Shown here: piece by piece, positions 12,983 to 20,646 of the stretch | How the letters are laid out: every line of letters starts with the position of its first letter | Position numbering within the stretch: the stretch's first letter is position 1 | Source: a virus | Length of the DNA: 36,220 bases | Direction: 5' to 3' (one strand) | Virus record (IMG/VR): IMGVR_UViG_3300039151_000034 | Coordinates: 1-36,220 of that record | Made by a program: the position numbers and the translations under genes | Notes under the pieces: model-generated | Databases searched by the model: none | The model's input: the letters and a program-made list of their open reading frames with translations, nothing else | What the model was told of the DNA's origin: nothing

Positions 12983-14647
12983 TTATTCATTCGAATTTGC
13001 GCCTTCGCCGCTGTTACCATTAACGGCTCCATTTCTGGTTTCCCTTATTTCTAGCAAAGGCTTTAATTCAATTCGAGAACTTTCCTTTTTGTATTTGTTG
13101 TAATTACTTATCCAATCGCCACCATTTGCCATTTCAGCAGCTTGTTCTCTGCTTATTAGCGGGCTATCATCCTTTAATAGTGTTCTTATTGCTCTAGCCT
13201 CTTTTAGTGGGTCAATATGCGGCATTTTCTTACCTACAAAACGAGATGAATAATAAGCCTCTAAAGCCATTTCATCATTTGTGGCAACAGCTCTATCATA
13301 TCCATCGCTATCTAATACGCCAGTCATATACTGATAGTAGCACCAGTAGCGGTTTATTGGCTTGTAGAATTGCTCTACAATTGTATATTCTCTAATAATA
13401 TCAATAACATACTCCCACATGTTAAGAGCTGCCCTTGAGCTGCTATATGATTGCTCAAACATTTGATTTGCCACTTCTGGCGGAATATCTTGTGAAGCAC
13501 AAAGCGATCTAACAATTGCCTTATAAAATGGATCAAAATTAACTTCACTTTCGTTTGTTGTAGATTTTAATTTAGCTCCTTTTGGTAAGTTCAAAACTTG
13601 ACCACTTGTCGATTGTCTTAACGCCTGAGCAGTTCTTCCGCTTTCTTCAAAAGTATTATCTTCATTGGTAACATTAGCGACTTTCCTAGCTCCAAAATTG
13701 CCGATAGGATTTTCTCCAGTTGATGAATCATCGTGTTCAAAAGTATAAACTAAATCAGCCATTTTTTCAGCCTTTGAAACGGAAGCTTCAACAAATCTAT
13801 CTAATTTAGATATTTTCTCCATTATAGAGCTGATTTGAGGAATACCCCTGTGATGATCTACTCGGTGTTTACCGCCATAGATCATCCAAACCATTAGATT
13901 TCCTCTTGAATCTTTAGCCTTTATTCTCTCGTAATCAGCTAGGTTATTATTTTTATCAGTTTTTACCCAAAATGCAATATGCTCACCCTTTGGACTAACT
14001 TCAACACCTTGTACTATTTTGTTTTTATCCCCTTTGCCGTTATCATCAAATGGTGTTTCGATTTGCTCGCCGTCAATTAACTGTATTTTTATTCCTGTTT
14101 TTTCTAAACGCATTACGATTAATCCGTCACCACCCAAATAAGCGGTTTTAAACGCATCACTAGCCTTTGCGTGTAAGTTTTGGCGACCTGAGTAGTCGCT
14201 TAATTTGGATTTAGACCAAAGGTTAAAAAGCCTTTCTTTTTTTACAATATTTTCATCGCTTACCTCATCGTAGCCTAATAATTGCAGAACTTGGTTATCT
14301 GGCTCATATTCAAACTTTAATCCAGTACCTACGCACCATTTAAAGAATTTTCCAGTAATTAACTTAACTAAATCTGTTTTAAGATCTAATTCATAAGCTC
14401 GAAGCCTTAATTTTAGATGATCTGGCTTTAAGTCGTATATATCTCCAAGCTCTCCAATGGTTTTTTCACCGTCGAAAGCAGCAGAGTATACTAGGTTTTG
14501 AGTACGCGGATAGGCTGGCATGTAGTTACCGCCAAAACTATTAGGATCTAAGGGTTTTAAGCTACTATTTTTACTAGATTGATCGTTTTTTTGCTCAGCT
14601 TTTTTTGGCTGTTTAGATTCTTTTTTGAAAAAGTCATTCCATGCCAT
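12983..14647 (-). CDS. Portal protein (lambda gpB-type)
   Basis: 554 aa, near the 533 aa of lambda gpB. It contains typical family segments: 'YDLKPDHLKLRLRAYELD', 'WCVGTGLKFEYEP', 'KTAYLGGDGLIVMRLEKTGIKIQLIDGEQIETP', 'HIAFWVK', and the C-terminal 'DIPPEVANQMFEQSYSSSRAALNMWEYVIDIIREYTIVEQFYKPINRYWC', which forms stem and wing helices. It makes the dodecameric DNA gate at the capsid vertex. The C-terminus is Asn/Gly-rich and is followed in frame by a VANNG repeat after its stop. Lys/Gln-rich N-terminus. Start ATG 14647, 3 bp after the small gene upstream. Confidence 0.9.
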   Translation of the reverse strand: MAWNDFFKKESKQPKKAEQKNDQSSKNSSLKPLDPNSFGGNYMPAYPRTQNLVYSAAFDGEKTIGELGDIYDLKPDHLKLRLRAYELDLKTDLVKLITGKFFKWCVGTGLKFEYEPDNQVLQLLGYDEVSDENIVKKERLFNLWSKSKLSDYSGRQNLHAKASDAFKTAYLGGDGLIVMRLEKTGIKIQLIDGEQIETPFDDNGKGDKNKIVQGVEVSPKGEHIAFWVKTDKNNNLADYERIKAKDSRGNLMVWMIYGGKHRVDHHRGIPQISSIMEKISKLDRFVEASVSKAEKMADLVYTFEHDDSSTGENPIGNFGARKVANVTNEDNTFEESGRTAQALRQSTSGQVLNLPKGAKLKSTTNESEVNFDPFYKAIVRSLCASQDIPPEVANQMFEQSYSSSRAALNMWEYVIDIIREYTIVEQFYKPINRYWCYYQYMTGVLDSDGYDRAVATNDEMALEAYYSSRFVGKKMPHIDPLKEARAIRTLLKDDSPLISREQAAEMANGGDWISNYNKYKKESSRIELKPLLEIRETRNGAVNGNSGEGANSNE

Positions 14648-14952: not shown

Positions 14953-14960
14953 CAAATATA
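14953..14960 (-). promoter_or_regulatory. -7 promoter box TATATTTG after a terminator
   Basis: On the reverse strand TATATTTG sits immediately downstream of the 14963-14997 hairpin and 6 bp before the ATG at 14947. The 15-mer early box is absent at the required distance. It may restart late transcription into the portal genes, with a very short or no leader. Confidence 0.45.
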
Positions 14961-14962
14961 AT

Positions 14963-14997
14963 AAAAAAAGCTATTGCGGTTAACAATAGCTTTTTTT
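14963..14997. terminator. Strong bidirectional hairpin terminator at the end of the Rieske cassette
   Basis: A 14-bp perfect stem (AAAAAAAGCTATTG / CAATAGCTTTTTTT) with a 7-nt loop, flanked by A and T tracts. On the reverse strand it ends the cassette transcribed from 16333-16383. Confidence 0.88.
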
Positions 14998-15025
14998 ATT
15001 TTTTTAAGAATACCTCCTAGATGTT

Positions 15026-15169
15026 TTATTTTTGAAGTTCAATAGATTCAACTTCTTGATATCCAAAAGAAACATAAAAAGCAATTATAGCACCTAATAC
15101 ACTGTAAGCGCTAACTATTTTATCATCATTTACACATCTAGCATTGTAAGTAACTTTGTATTTTTTCAT
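15026..15169 (-). CDS. Small unknown protein (47 aa), last gene of the Rieske cassette
   Basis: Short ORF from ATG 15169 to TAA 15026: MKKYKVTYNARCVNDDKIVS, then 'AYSVLGAIIAFYVSFGYQEVESIELQK'. It starts 7 bp after the stop of the preceding gene and ends before the terminator. The pattern of an N-terminal beta strand and a short helix suggests a small soluble protein. No family recognised. Confidence 0.6.
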   Translation of the reverse strand: MKKYKVTYNARCVNDDKIVSAYSVLGAIIAFYVSFGYQEVESIELQK

Positions 15170-15175
15170 GGCTTT

Positions 15176-15379
15176 CTAGTTATCATTAATTATTAAAACA
15201 TTTATATCATCGGTAATTTTGAAATCATAATGCTCGGTATTATAACCGCCATAGGCTAAAGTGTAAAGAATTGAACTTTTTGAAATAACTAACTCGGTTA
15301 CAATTTTTTTTTCTCTTTGAATATCTGTAATTAAATAAACAAAATCTCCAATATCAAATTTGTTGTCTATGACCATCAT
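15176..15379 (-). CDS. Small SH3/KOW-like phage protein
   Basis: 67 aa, starting MMVIDNKFDIGDFVYLITDIQREK and containing 'VTELVISKSSILYTLAYGGYNTEHYDFKI'. The 'F.IGD.VYL.TD.' start and 'Y.L..G....H.D.EI' end are a pattern seen in small phage proteins with an SH3-like barrel. No enzymatic motif. Its ATG overlaps the stop of the Rieske gene (ATGA), so the two are probably translationally coupled. Confidence 0.6.
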   Translation of the reverse strand: MMVIDNKFDIGDFVYLITDIQREKKIVTELVISKSSILYTLAYGGYNTEHYDFKITDDINVLIINDN

Positions 15380-15918
15380 TTTGTTTTATTTATTACTATT
15401 CCTTTTTTGTTAAACTTTAAGCCGTGCAAAGGACAGGTTTTTACCCCATCTTCGTCAGCTTTGACTTGGCTCAAATCATATCCCCTATGAGGACATTTTC
15501 CTTTATGAATACATTTATTTTTTAGTTTTGACTTTTCGATTAAAGAAACATCCGTAATTCCTGTAAAATCTTCGTTTAAAACTGGTAATAAATGATATTC
15601 TAAATCTCCAAAATCTTTCTCAGGTCTTAATTCAGTTGCAAATATGTGTAAAGAATGAGAATTTATAACTGTTGGAAAATTGCCGTCGTTTTTATGATTT
15701 ATAAATCTGTAATCTAAATGAAAATGACTTTCTTTTTGACCATTCTCAACATCGTTATGAGGATGATTAATGATTGGTAATACAAAAATCTTAGTATTCT
15801 TTTTAATTTTTACATCTAACCAAATATTTTCTTCATCTTCTAATTCTCTTTTGACCAGACAAGGTACTAAGAATATTTCTCCCTTTATTAATGGTCGTTG
15901 CGCTTCTTCAACTTTCAT
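15376..15918 (-). CDS. Protein with a C-terminal Rieske [2Fe-2S] motif
   Basis: 180 aa. The C-terminus contains a complete Rieske signature: C142-P-H144, 17 residues, then C162-P-L-H165, with the usual Gly after each (CPHRG, CPLHG). The two Cys and two His bind a [2Fe-2S] cluster. An extra C136/H138 lies just upstream. The N-terminal ~130 residues are beta-rich with a His-rich stretch (HPHND..., HFHLDYRF) and match no family I can name. No signal peptide or membrane segment, so it should be cytoplasmic. Rieske centres carry electrons, usually to oxygenases or in respiratory complexes; no partner oxygenase is visible. It is third in a five-gene cassette driven by an early-class promoter. Confidence 0.85.
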   Translation of the reverse strand: MKVEEAQRPLIKGEIFLVPCLVKRELEDEENIWLDVKIKKNTKIFVLPIINHPHNDVENGQKESHFHLDYRFINHKNDGNFPTVINSHSLHIFATELRPEKDFGDLEYHLLPVLNEDFTGITDVSLIEKSKLKNKCIHKGKCPHRGYDLSQVKADEDGVKTCPLHGLKFNKKGIVINKTK

Positions 15919-15931
15919 AATTTATTTTTTT

Positions 15932-16120
15932 TTATTTCCAGTAAGTTACTTTCCAGTTAATATTTGGCATATCAAAATGGAATCTTTTTTTAGTTATAAA
16001 ATATGTGCAAAACGATTGTTTTGTTTTTCCATCGCAATCGATTAAAACCTGATATTTTTCTTCTTTATCAGGTTTTTTATCTTCGATTTTATTCCAGTTT
16101 TGAAAAGTTATTTTTTTCAT
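15932..16120 (-). CDS. Small unknown protein (62 aa), Rieske cassette
   Basis: MKKITFQNWNKIEDKKPDKE, then 'EKYQVLIDCDGKTKQSFCTYFITKKRFHFDMPNINWKVTYWK'. The pattern 'W..I.D.KP....YQVLID.DG......Y......F........V.YW' is a small beta-rich protein of a type seen in phages as 'DUF551'-like (short WxPI...P proteins). That match is tentative. The start overlaps the stop of the preceding gene by 4 bp (ATGA). Confidence 0.55.
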   Translation of the reverse strand: MKKITFQNWNKIEDKKPDKEEKYQVLIDCDGKTKQSFCTYFITKKRFHFDMPNINWKVTYWK

Positions 16121-16308
16121 CTTACAAGTATATCACTACCTACATAGCTAGGTCTACTGTGCATTTCTATATCACACATTTTTTGATTAAAAACTATATA
16201 ATCATTTTTAGGAAAGTTATCCATTACAAATAAATGATATTTGTTTTTAGTAGCGTTTGTTTTGTTTGCACATTTCTTAGCTAGTTGGTTTATTGTAAGA
16301 TTTTTCAT
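16117..16308 (-). CDS. Small basic protein (63 aa), first gene of the Rieske cassette
   Basis: MKNLTINQLAKKCANKTNAT, then 'KNKYHLFVMDNFPKNDYIVFNQKMC...'. Start ATG 16308, about 18 nt after the transcription start expected from the promoter at 16333-16383. Basic, no membrane segment. Function unknown. It overlaps the next gene by 4 bp. Confidence 0.55.
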   Translation of the reverse strand: MKNLTINQLAKKCANKTNATKNKYHLFVMDNFPKNDYIVFNQKMCDIEMHSRPSYVGSDILVR

Positions 16309-16332
16309 GGTGTATCGTTTTTAAGTACACTA

Positions 16333-16383
16333 CAAATATAAAACACAAAAAAACATAATAAACTAATATTAACAAAGTTTTAA
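16333..16383 (-). promoter_or_regulatory. Early-class promoter module, copy 2 (reverse strand)
   Basis: On the reverse strand TTAAAACTTTGTTAA (16383-16369) is followed by TATATTTG (16340-16333) with exactly 32 nt between ACTTTG and the -7 box. It lies in the 119-bp gap between terminase (stop 16428) and the first cassette gene (start 16308), so it gives the Rieske cassette its own transcription. Confidence 0.8.
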
Positions 16384-16427: not shown

Positions 16428-18476
16428 CTATTCACTTACAAACTCAACAAAACTCGCCCAATCTAAATGTCTAAATTTAGAAGGGTTACTTCTTTTTATT
16501 AGGTCCATGAAAACATATCTAGCCGCTAAATTATAGATCTCTACATCCCAAAAGTGGTTTTCTGTCATGCTTGTTTTTTTATCCCATTTGAATCCAACTA
16601 CTTGACCGTTTTCTTTTACCTCTTTTCGTTGCTCACTTTCAAAATGTTTAAAATATTCCTTAAAACTATATTTACCGTCCCTCGGGTTTGGAAAATTCAT
16701 AAACCCTGGAGGTTGTGTTCCATCATCTGTTTTTCTTAGCTTCATGTAGCTTGCCAGTTCATCTTTTAACTGGTCGACCTCTGCAATATATAGCTTTGGA
16801 TTTTCTCGGCTTCTCTTAACGGCTGGCGTGTCCTTTAAATCAGATCTAAACTTTTTATCTGACCTACCTTTAATTCCGTACACTGGATTATCTCCGTCAT
16901 ACATATTGATAAATTGATCGGCATATCTAGTGAAGTTTCCAGTATCAACTATCGAAATACTAATTATGTATTCAGTACCACTTTGACCAATTATATCCCT
17001 TTTTATTATTTTATCCAAAATAGGCCATACGCTGTTTTTCTGACCATGCATGTAAGTGTATTTTTTTCTCTCATGATCTTTTTCAATTTCCTTTTTTGAT
17101 TTTGTATGTTTACGCTTAAAAGTTCCAATGGCTCCTTGATCGATTGAATATTTTACACCATTTGCAGCATATGCGGAAATTGCCCAATCGATTCTTACAT
17201 CTTCAATATCTTCATCGGTATTCATAATTCCTCCAAGGTCAGCAGCAAGAGATATAAAAACAATTTCGCCGTTTCCGTCCTCCTTTGATAGCTCATCTGG
17301 TATTATTCCAATATCATAGGTTCCCGTATTTTTCATTAATTGCATGATCTTTGGAGCCTCGCCACGTTCCTCAAATGGTAAACCTAGCCGAACATTGTAA
17401 AACGCTTTTAACATGTCAACGTTTACGGGTTTTTTTGGTGGACATGCTTCCAAAAATTCCTTTACAAGATCTTGCCAGCTAAAAAAGCCAGGAAGTATTA
17501 TAAGCGAATTAATATAGTAGCTTTTATAATTTTCCTCTATTGCTTGAGCTGTTGCAATCCATTTGCCGCTCTTGTTTAATTTAACTTTTGATTTTTGACT
17601 AACCTTGTGACCACAATGCGGGCATTTATATCTTACACTATTTTTTATTAATTTGTTATTTTCGTCAGTTTCCCAGACTATTCCAGCGCGTTTATTATTA
17701 GGTAGATTAATTTGAAAATCTGTAGGCATCCAACCATCGCATTTTTCGCAAAGCCAATGCCATTTTCTCTGGTCCCCTTGCATGTAAGATTCATAAACGT
17801 TTGACGATTGGGTTTCTGTAGGCGTGGAAATAACATACATTTTGGCTAAATTACCATAGGAGGTTTGACGCGCTTCAACTAGCTTTCTAATACTACCCTC
17901 TTTTTTATCGCTCTTAGGAGCCGCATCGAAATCATCCATGAAAACAGTCTTAACACTGAAAAATCTAAACTTACTTGCATTATTAGTTCCTTCAATAATT
18001 GCGGACCCGCCAGCAAATTCTTTAGACAAATCCGTATCTCCAGATCGCTGGCCTTTTGCTCTTATAGTGTTTGGCCTTATAAGATGTTTCAAATTGCTGG
18101 CTTGCATAATATTATCAAACCGTTCTCGAATTGTTTTTTTCGCTAGATCTTTATCTCCAGCGGTAAACAAAAAATTATCTGGATTTTCAGAAATTATGTA
18201 AGCCATCCCAGGAACCACCAAACCTTGAGTAATTCCAGATTGAGCGGACTTCATAACCGCAACCATTTTTGTTGGATCGCTCGGGTGTAACGTGTCAACA
18301 ATCTCCCGACAATATGGGGATAAATCATAACTCATTCTCCCGTTAAATCTCGATACTTCTTTTGGTAAATAAATATTATCCTCAATCCATTGACTTGGTA
18401 TTTCTTTTACAGATTTATAACTGTATAGTTTTTCTTGGAAACTATTTACTTTGTCCCTCCATTGTTCTGCTATCAT
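16428..18476 (-). CDS. Terminase large subunit (GpA family)
   Basis: 682 aa, near lambda gpA (641 aa). Walker A-like KSAQSGITQG (76-85), Walker B region VFMDDFDA (178-185; lambda-type proteins usually have a DE.D here), 'VISTPTE' coupling motif about 215. A Cys4 zinc knuckle lies in the middle (CEKCDGW ... CPHCGHK), then a nuclease half with 'FISLAADLGG', 'DIGIIPDELS' and 'SIVDTGNFT'. It packages DNA by ATP hydrolysis and cuts concatemers. It follows the methyltransferase gene by 3 bp. Start ATG 18476. Confidence 0.92.
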   Translation of the reverse strand: MIAEQWRDKVNSFQEKLYSYKSVKEIPSQWIEDNIYLPKEVSRFNGRMSYDLSPYCREIVDTLHPSDPTKMVAVMKSAQSGITQGLVVPGMAYIISENPDNFLFTAGDKDLAKKTIRERFDNIMQASNLKHLIRPNTIRAKGQRSGDTDLSKEFAGGSAIIEGTNNASKFRFFSVKTVFMDDFDAAPKSDKKEGSIRKLVEARQTSYGNLAKMYVISTPTETQSSNVYESYMQGDQRKWHWLCEKCDGWMPTDFQINLPNNKRAGIVWETDENNKLIKNSVRYKCPHCGHKVSQKSKVKLNKSGKWIATAQAIEENYKSYYINSLIILPGFFSWQDLVKEFLEACPPKKPVNVDMLKAFYNVRLGLPFEERGEAPKIMQLMKNTGTYDIGIIPDELSKEDGNGEIVFISLAADLGGIMNTDEDIEDVRIDWAISAYAANGVKYSIDQGAIGTFKRKHTKSKKEIEKDHERKKYTYMHGQKNSVWPILDKIIKRDIIGQSGTEYIISISIVDTGNFTRYADQFINMYDGDNPVYGIKGRSDKKFRSDLKDTPAVKRSRENPKLYIAEVDQLKDELASYMKLRKTDDGTQPPGFMNFPNPRDGKYSFKEYFKHFESEQRKEVKENGQVVGFKWDKKTSMTENHFWDVEIYNLAARYVFMDLIKRSNPSKFRHLDWASFVEFVSE

Positions 18477-20253: not shown

Positions 20254-20646
20254 AGATAATTTATTGCAAATGAATATAACAAATCGCAAATCTGTGAAAA
20301 ATGCCTAAAGATTGTGGTGTTTAAAGTATTGCATAATTTAACAGAACCTCTGAAAGTACCTAAAAAATTTAGTGTCTAACGTACCACACTTAACGCCTAA
20401 GACATTTAAACAACACACGCACACACATATAAGTAATTAATCAATACAGTTGCTTAGAAGGCTTTAAAATCACTATTTATTTTACTGATTTGCTTTAATA
20501 AAGAATAAATTAACAACTTAACGGGTAATATTATCAATTATATTCTGTTTGCTGTTTTTTACTATCTCATTTGCTACTTTTTACTGTAATAATTATCTAT
20601 AGTTAACATCATTAATAATAGATTAAGTTTATATAAATAAAAAAAT

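Follow-up and report, generated by a model that had tools for sequence, protein, structure and literature searches.

What does a Rieske-motif protein do in the middle of the virion genes of a phage? The window analyzed here, a virus record of 36,220 bases with a G+C content of 32.6%, is a phage contig of Bacteroidota type, and such a gene lies in a small cassette between its terminase and portal genes. A first-pass annotation of the locus suggested host reprogramming, such as redirecting electrons or modifying a small molecule or a DNA base. We tentatively favor, at slightly less than an even chance, a DNA-damage-response metalloprotein in which a Rieske [2Fe-2S] center would feed a second metal for redox chemistry on damaged or modified nucleobases.

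Organization of the cassette

The minus strand carries, in order, a gpA-type terminase (16428-18476), the five-gene cassette, a small gene in the gpW position that matches phrog_5196 in PHROGs and separates the cassette from the portal, and a lambda-type portal (12983-14647). The first cassette gene (16117-16308) encodes 63 aa and has no family match above cut-off. It shares an ATGA overlap with the second (15932-16120, 62 aa), for which there is a weak match to phrog_7704 (E=0.0014). The third gene (15376-15918) starts 13 nt further on and encodes the 180-aa, two-domain Rieske-motif protein, assigned from PF00355, phrog_10072 and a 36-member alignment. Its end overlaps the fourth gene (15176-15379, 67 aa, no family match) in a further ATGA, and a 6-nt gap leads to the fifth (15026-15169, 47 aa, no family match above chance). 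The two overlaps and two short gaps agree with the coupling described in the first-pass annotation.

That annotation placed an early-class promoter at 16333-16383. We find it at 16333-16375 on the minus strand as TTGTTA-N29-TATATTTG, with TTGTTA at 16375-16370 and TATATTTG at 16340-16333. Promoters with TAnnTTTG are of the type described for Bacteroidetes and Flavobacterium. At this exact spacing, TTGTTA-N29-TAnnTTTG occurs seven times in the window, where a second-order Markov model of its sequence predicts 0.023 sites; spacings of 13, 20 and 23 give one site each. Six of the seven sites (247, 20979, 21417, 26021, 28443 and 29815) are on the plus strand, and the cassette promoter (16375) is the sole one of the class on the virion-gene strand. 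Because five of the six plus-strand sites front replication or nucleotide gene clusters, the class is probably early, and early expression may reasonably be predicted for the cassette, which shares the pattern. The rigid N29 spacing exceeds the usual Bacteroidetes -33/-7 distance. The class may be phage-specific and may require a phage-encoded activator or sigma factor.

The cassette ends in an intrinsic terminator (14963-14997, minus strand), whose 14-bp stem had been recognized at the outset; it is followed by a T-run, and the fold has an energy of -19.1 kcal/mol with z=-9.4. A pattern scan finds a promoter-like TTGTTA-N20-TATATTTG (14953-14986, minus strand) that overlaps and follows the terminator and fronts the gpW-position gene and the portal. 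Terminator and next promoter are thus fused within 14953-14997, TTGTTA lying in the stem and TATATTTG following it for the portal operon.

The site can be followed in three close relatives. The cassette promoter precedes the Rieske gene in all of them (L006, L007 and L008), with an identical distance of 29 nt and an altered spacer sequence. L008 is the relative whose whole cassette stretch was read. It keeps the terminator, and also the fused arrangement, there with a spacing of N21. Both small genes upstream of the Rieske gene are absent from L008, and the downstream cassette genes are replaced by one for a 123-aa protein whose N-terminus is signal-like. Its identity to the window is 96% for the Rieske protein, 96% for the terminase, 86% for the portal and 80% for the gpW-position protein. 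Given this 96% identity and the exchange of the other cassette genes, the conserved cargo is the Rieske gene, which exceeds the adjoining portal in conservation and roughly equals the terminase. The self-contained anatomy that was first described is therefore confirmed: with its own promoter and terminator, variable cargo and a fixed site between virion genes, the cassette is moron-like, and the promoter/terminator site is kept in close relatives.

Two invariant sets of candidate ligands in the Rieske-motif protein

The C-terminal part of the protein (residues 125-177) matches PF00355 with E=2e-7 and 31.3 bits, against a cut-off of 20.3. The match covers profile positions 27-77 of 88, which are the cluster-binding loops. 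The motif CPHRG-x15-CPLH (residues 142-165; 15424-15495, minus strand) contains the candidate ligands in the form C142-P-H144-x17-C162-P-L-H165, so the C-terminal Rieske assignment made at first reading stands. A sequence profile matches PDB entries through the Rieske part only (SxtT/SxtDIOX, carnitine monooxygenase, T4moC and dicamba demethylase). The protein also matches phrog_10072 (E=2.5e-13). This profile is matched by 13/13 members of set A2 and is covered nearly full-length by one of the homologs (L078, residues 4-136 on positions 9-159 of 178).

The N-terminal domain spans about 125 aa, is mostly beta and matches no known family; a metallo-beta-lactamase-like reading of its HxHxD was rejected on these features. 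From the alignment, the motif H-x-D-x8-H-x-H-x-D-x-R-F (residues 54-72; 15703-15759, minus strand) is a putative second metal site. Across 36 divergent proteins, with window-to-bacterial identity near 20% and extremes of about 20%, exactly 12 columns are invariant: H54, D56, H65, H67, D69 and R71 in the N-terminal domain, and C142, P143, H144, G146, C162 and H165 in the Rieske part. F72 is kept in 35/36. Ten of the invariant positions hold H, D, C or R, classic residues for metal binding or catalysis; the proline and glycine of the Rieske loop make up the remaining two. The pattern suggests two metal sites. Loss of either Cys-His pair in homologs had been named in advance as an argument against cluster binding; all four CxH...CxxH ligands, two Cys and two His, are retained in 36/36. 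Residues E58, N59, G60 and Q61 are constant, or almost so, across the phage branch and variable in the bacterial branch. Cys136 (in KCIHKGKCPHRG) was considered as a further invariant residue and rejected as dispensable, being lost in L053, L078, L115 and L118.

Most phage members have 16-17 residues between H144 and C162, one (L025) has 29, and the branch of bacterial and prophage proteins has 13; raw values of x22-23 count from an upstream CIH and are not Rieske spacings. Proteins of the x13 branch score 14-17 bits with PF00355, under the cut-off. Because of the shortened spacing and the low score, zinc instead of an Fe-S cluster is possible in that branch.

Structure prediction had been proposed for the N-terminal domain. 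A first AlphaFold2 model, from four sequences, was unusable (pLDDT 38), and a second reached pLDDT 82 and pTM 0.78, with strands at residues 54-56 and 61-65. These strands would allow a hairpin with H54/D56 near H65/H67, and with it a plausible second metal site. Foldseek found no relative of this model in PDB or BFVD at E<=0.001. The prediction thus delivered a usable model and no related fold, and the first description of the domain as of no known type is upheld.

Distribution of the family

Scanning viral contigs by pattern and by profile gave about 26 distinct family proteins. Whether the N-terminal domain is joined to Rieske in other phages, a point raised in the first-pass annotation, can be answered from motif searches of these contigs. 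Either motif alone, N-terminal or C-terminal, retrieves nearly the same loci, and judged from this the halves are passed on as a unit. Three family copies lie on one 146-kb phage contig, a prophage (L160) has a copy near a terminase related to that of the window, and one further phage-like contig (L181) has a Rieske gene. The latter contig also encodes, at 1722-2963, a PurA/PurZ-like adenylosuccinate synthetase, recognized by eye from GFGDEGKG, and is possibly that of a 2-aminoadenine phage. Among the INPHARED isolate phages, tblastn found no credible relative, only ordinary bacterial-type Rieske genes or chance matches.

A DNA pattern search of bacterial genomes gave 18 matches, all by chance or to NUDIX-like proteins. 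Full-length bacterial relatives (E of 8e-14 and 4e-12) came only from a profile search, run on 395 Bacteroidota genomes, and this bacterial branch overturned the idea of a phage-only family. Wider searches brought the bacterial set to 12 intact copies and one broken copy, all in one genus. No homolog was found in Pseudomonadota (0/299), an empty answer that carries little weight. In the tree, a well-supported branch (98/99) sets the 12 bacterial proteins apart; closest to them are the third copy from the 146-kb phage and the prophage copy.

Bacterial homologs lie in SOS-associated polymerase cassettes

In 12/12 intact bacterial loci the Rieske gene is beside an error-prone polymerase cassette; the loci come from one Bacteroidota genus and hence are not independent. 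Seven loci have a PolY-DnaE pair (L148, L157, L158, L159, L182, L184 and L185) and five have ImuA-ImuB-DnaE2 (L147, L183, L186, L187, which runs off its contig, and L188). Pfam matches on representative genes are IMS, DNA_pol3_alpha with PHP, SRAP and 2OG-FeII_Oxy_2 (AlkB type); ImuA was assigned by eye and position and has no Pfam match. SRAP is present in most of the loci. The AlkB-type 2OG oxygenase (PF13532) is present in some, in the same operon as the Rieske gene in L147 and adjoining in L188. Spacing between genes is tight. SRAP and Rieske genes overlap by 1 nt in L148, L157 and L182; in L147 the series AlkB, 80-aa protein, Rieske and 642-aa protein has 4-nt overlaps and one 34-nt gap; and in L158 and L159 PolY, DnaE, a 77-aa protein and Rieske are co-directional with gaps of 4-31 nt. 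PolY genes are few in these genomes, 3-8 in 3.9-8.1 Mb. With 12/12 loci and two cassette types, the adjacency is therefore far from chance, common descent allowed for.

Small proteins of 77-85 aa recur in the SOS cassettes next to the DnaE and Rieske genes (L147:10026-10268, L157:3769-4026, L158:10181-10414 and L159:9362-9595). The broken copy lies in a decayed SOS cassette (L161:2700-10151), where Rieske and SRAP genes are split, DnaE is truncated and transposase-like genes lie among them.

SOS repressors of Bacteroidetes bind CTAA-N5-TTAG, and the SOS regulons of Sphingobacteriaceae and Chitinophagaceae are large, including dinB, imuA-imuB-dnaE2, SRAP and splB (PMC8565304). The bacterial loci contain 22 CTAA-N5-TTAG sites against 2.4 expected. 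An intergenic SOS box is present at the cassette promoters in 12/12 intact loci, and in two loci a box lies directly ahead of the Rieske gene (81 bp in L183, 74 bp in L184). Damage is a likely theme for the family because of this SOS setting. The window has three CTAA-N5-TTAG sites (20360, 27997 and 30253), none of them at the phage cassette. The site at 20360 is intergenic, between divergent late and early gene blocks.

The same loci bear on the leading alternative, that the protein is an accessory or sensor subunit whose Fe-S cluster or zinc is structural or senses oxidants or NO, and which binds and gates an error-prone polymerase or DNA. Bacterial copies are always by polymerases, of two types, the protein is small, and its Rieske part is limited to the cluster-binding loops; mutasome modules are also known to take on small regulators, SRAP-like proteins among them (PMC12926913). 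Set against this, the strict ligand set of the second domain (three His, two Asp and one Arg) exceeds structural need, and phage copies exist without adjoining polymerases. We consider a subunit of this kind fairly unlikely.

The 642-aa gene that overlaps the Rieske gene in L147 (7542-9470) matches the PADLOC candidate defense family PDC-S56 with E=9e-195; the Rieske gene itself matches no PADLOC defense family. Such a neighbor would suit a zinc-binding structural protein of a mobile element or defense island, with CPH...CPLH holding zinc and a coincidental resemblance to Rieske. Since true Rieske proteins are matched by both Pfam and PDB profiles, and the 642-aa gene was not found in the other bacterial loci, we regard this as very improbable.

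Phage neighborhoods and the proposed function

Several phage copies are near genes for a DnaB-like helicase, DNA polymerase, primase, dUTPase, exonuclease or RNA ligase. In one phage group the Rieske gene directly follows a match to spore photoproduct lyase (PF20903, E=1.5e-22), and PF20903 is above cut-off in four Rieske-carrying contigs. These neighborhoods agree with a DNA role and are weaker evidence than the bacterial loci. SplB-like radical SAM genes are seen in L139 (3963-4832) and in G014 and G017-G019, directly upstream of Rieske in three. A radical-SAM-like gene matching phrog_27142 (Fe-S-cluster redox) lies directly downstream of another phage Rieske gene (L047:8563-9402).

Could the protein be a plain electron carrier, a Rieske ferredoxin supplying a host or phage oxygenase as an auxiliary metabolic gene product? 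The intact ligands would allow it, and the ferredoxin T4moC is among the PDB profile matches, besides oxygenases. Yet no recurrent oxygenase gene was seen alongside the phage copies, and the invariant N-terminal motif and the SOS context would be left unexplained. AlkB enzymes, which occur in some bacterial cassettes, depend on 2-oxoglutarate and require no ferredoxin. A carrier is therefore improbable, and the earlier suggestion of redirected host electrons finds no support.

A phage enzyme for DNA hypermodification or anti-restriction, oxidizing bases of phage DNA, would fit the early-type promoter, the replication and dUTPase neighbors in several phages and the window's two DNA methyltransferase-like genes. 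The bacterial homologs are tied to SOS mutagenesis instead of modification/restriction systems, and no modification partner gene recurs beside the phage copies, which makes this enzyme quite improbable. Among the roles first listed, a DNA role is strongly supported in context by the SOS cassettes and the replication and SplB-like neighbors; base hypermodification and general reprogramming fit less well than repair or damage response, because the bacterial copies share a damage-tolerance context.

In the damage-response metalloprotein that we favor, the C-terminal Rieske-type [2Fe-2S] center, if occupied (C142, H144, C162 and H165), would accept electrons from a host reductase for transfer to a second metal. 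This metal, probably non-heme iron, would be held on a putative N-terminal β-hairpin by some of H54, D56, H65, H67 and D69, with R71 nearby. Redox chemistry at the N-terminal site would then act on nucleobases that are damaged or modified, either within DNA or in the nucleotide pool. The homolog in Bacteroidota would be made together with the error-prone polymerases under SOS control. The phages, if they retain the bacterial function, would carry the gene as conserved cargo of an early cassette inserted between the terminase and the portal operon, and the protein would act before or during replication. The benefit would be that phage DNA can still be replicated when the cell is damaged or hostile. 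The sequences themselves establish the anatomy of the cassette, the homology, the conserved residues, and the SOS cassettes and boxes around the bacterial genes; cofactor occupancy, catalysis, substrate and equivalence of the phage protein are inferred from them. Against this reading, neither a polymerase nor SRAP adjoins the Rieske gene in the window, and the N-terminal domain offers no enzymatic precedent, since Foldseek found no related fold in PDB or BFVD; the possible zinc in the x13 branch and the origin of the bacterial loci from a single genus also weigh against it. A bolder version makes the family a new DNA-repair enzyme class, miniature Rieske-driven non-heme metalloenzymes that would reverse or process nucleobase damage in SOS-regulated Bacteroidota mutasome cassettes and that phages acquired as an early gene. 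We consider this doubtful, its chances lying well below even.

Comparison with known systems

The window protein belongs to the same family as phrog_10072, listed in PHROGs v4 with 'unknown function'; the entry has no function, context, metal-site analysis or link to bacterial SOS cassettes. With PF00355 proteins such as SxtT/SxtDIOX and T4moC it shares CxH...CxxH in the CPHRG/CPLHG style, with x16-17 in most phage members. Unlike in those proteins, only the cluster part is recognizable, it is C-terminal and joined to an unrelated N-terminal domain, and the bacterial branch has x13. The proposed likeness to alpha subunits of Rieske non-heme iron oxygenases is a Rieske center that would feed a mononuclear metal site in one chain. 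Those subunits have an N-terminal Rieske domain and a C-terminal helix-grip catalytic domain with a 2-His-1-carboxylate site, and are over 300 aa long; the protein here has 180 aa, the reverse domain order and no family match to the catalytic domain. With AlkB-type 2OG-Fe(II) oxygenases (PF13532) it would share the use of non-heme iron on nucleobases, whereas sequence and cofactor system are unrelated.

The bacterial homologs are co-located with ImuA-ImuB-DnaE2 or with the Bacteroidetes DnaE2B-PolY-RecA modules (PMC12926913), and the phage gene lies outside such modules. SOS boxes of the Bacteroidetes LexA regulon (PMC8565304) are present at the bacterial loci. The main texts of PMC12926913, a survey of DnaE2/PolY modules, and PMC8565304 do not mention a Rieske protein. 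A corpus of 5.39 million open papers, main texts only, gave none pairing 'Rieske' with 'ImuB' or Rieske with mutagenesis and DnaE2, no relevant phage Rieske paper, and no report of a Rieske protein in connection with either SOS mutagenesis or DNA repair. The protein thus joins a Rieske motif to a new partner domain, and its association with SOS appears to be unreported. An enzyme of the proposed kind would bring a redox cofactor system into the handling of DNA damage. It would also account for retention of the gene by phages with quite different genomes. Were the protein a regulatory subunit only, it would still give the Bacteroidota mutasome cassettes that bear SOS boxes a component that seems not to have been reported.
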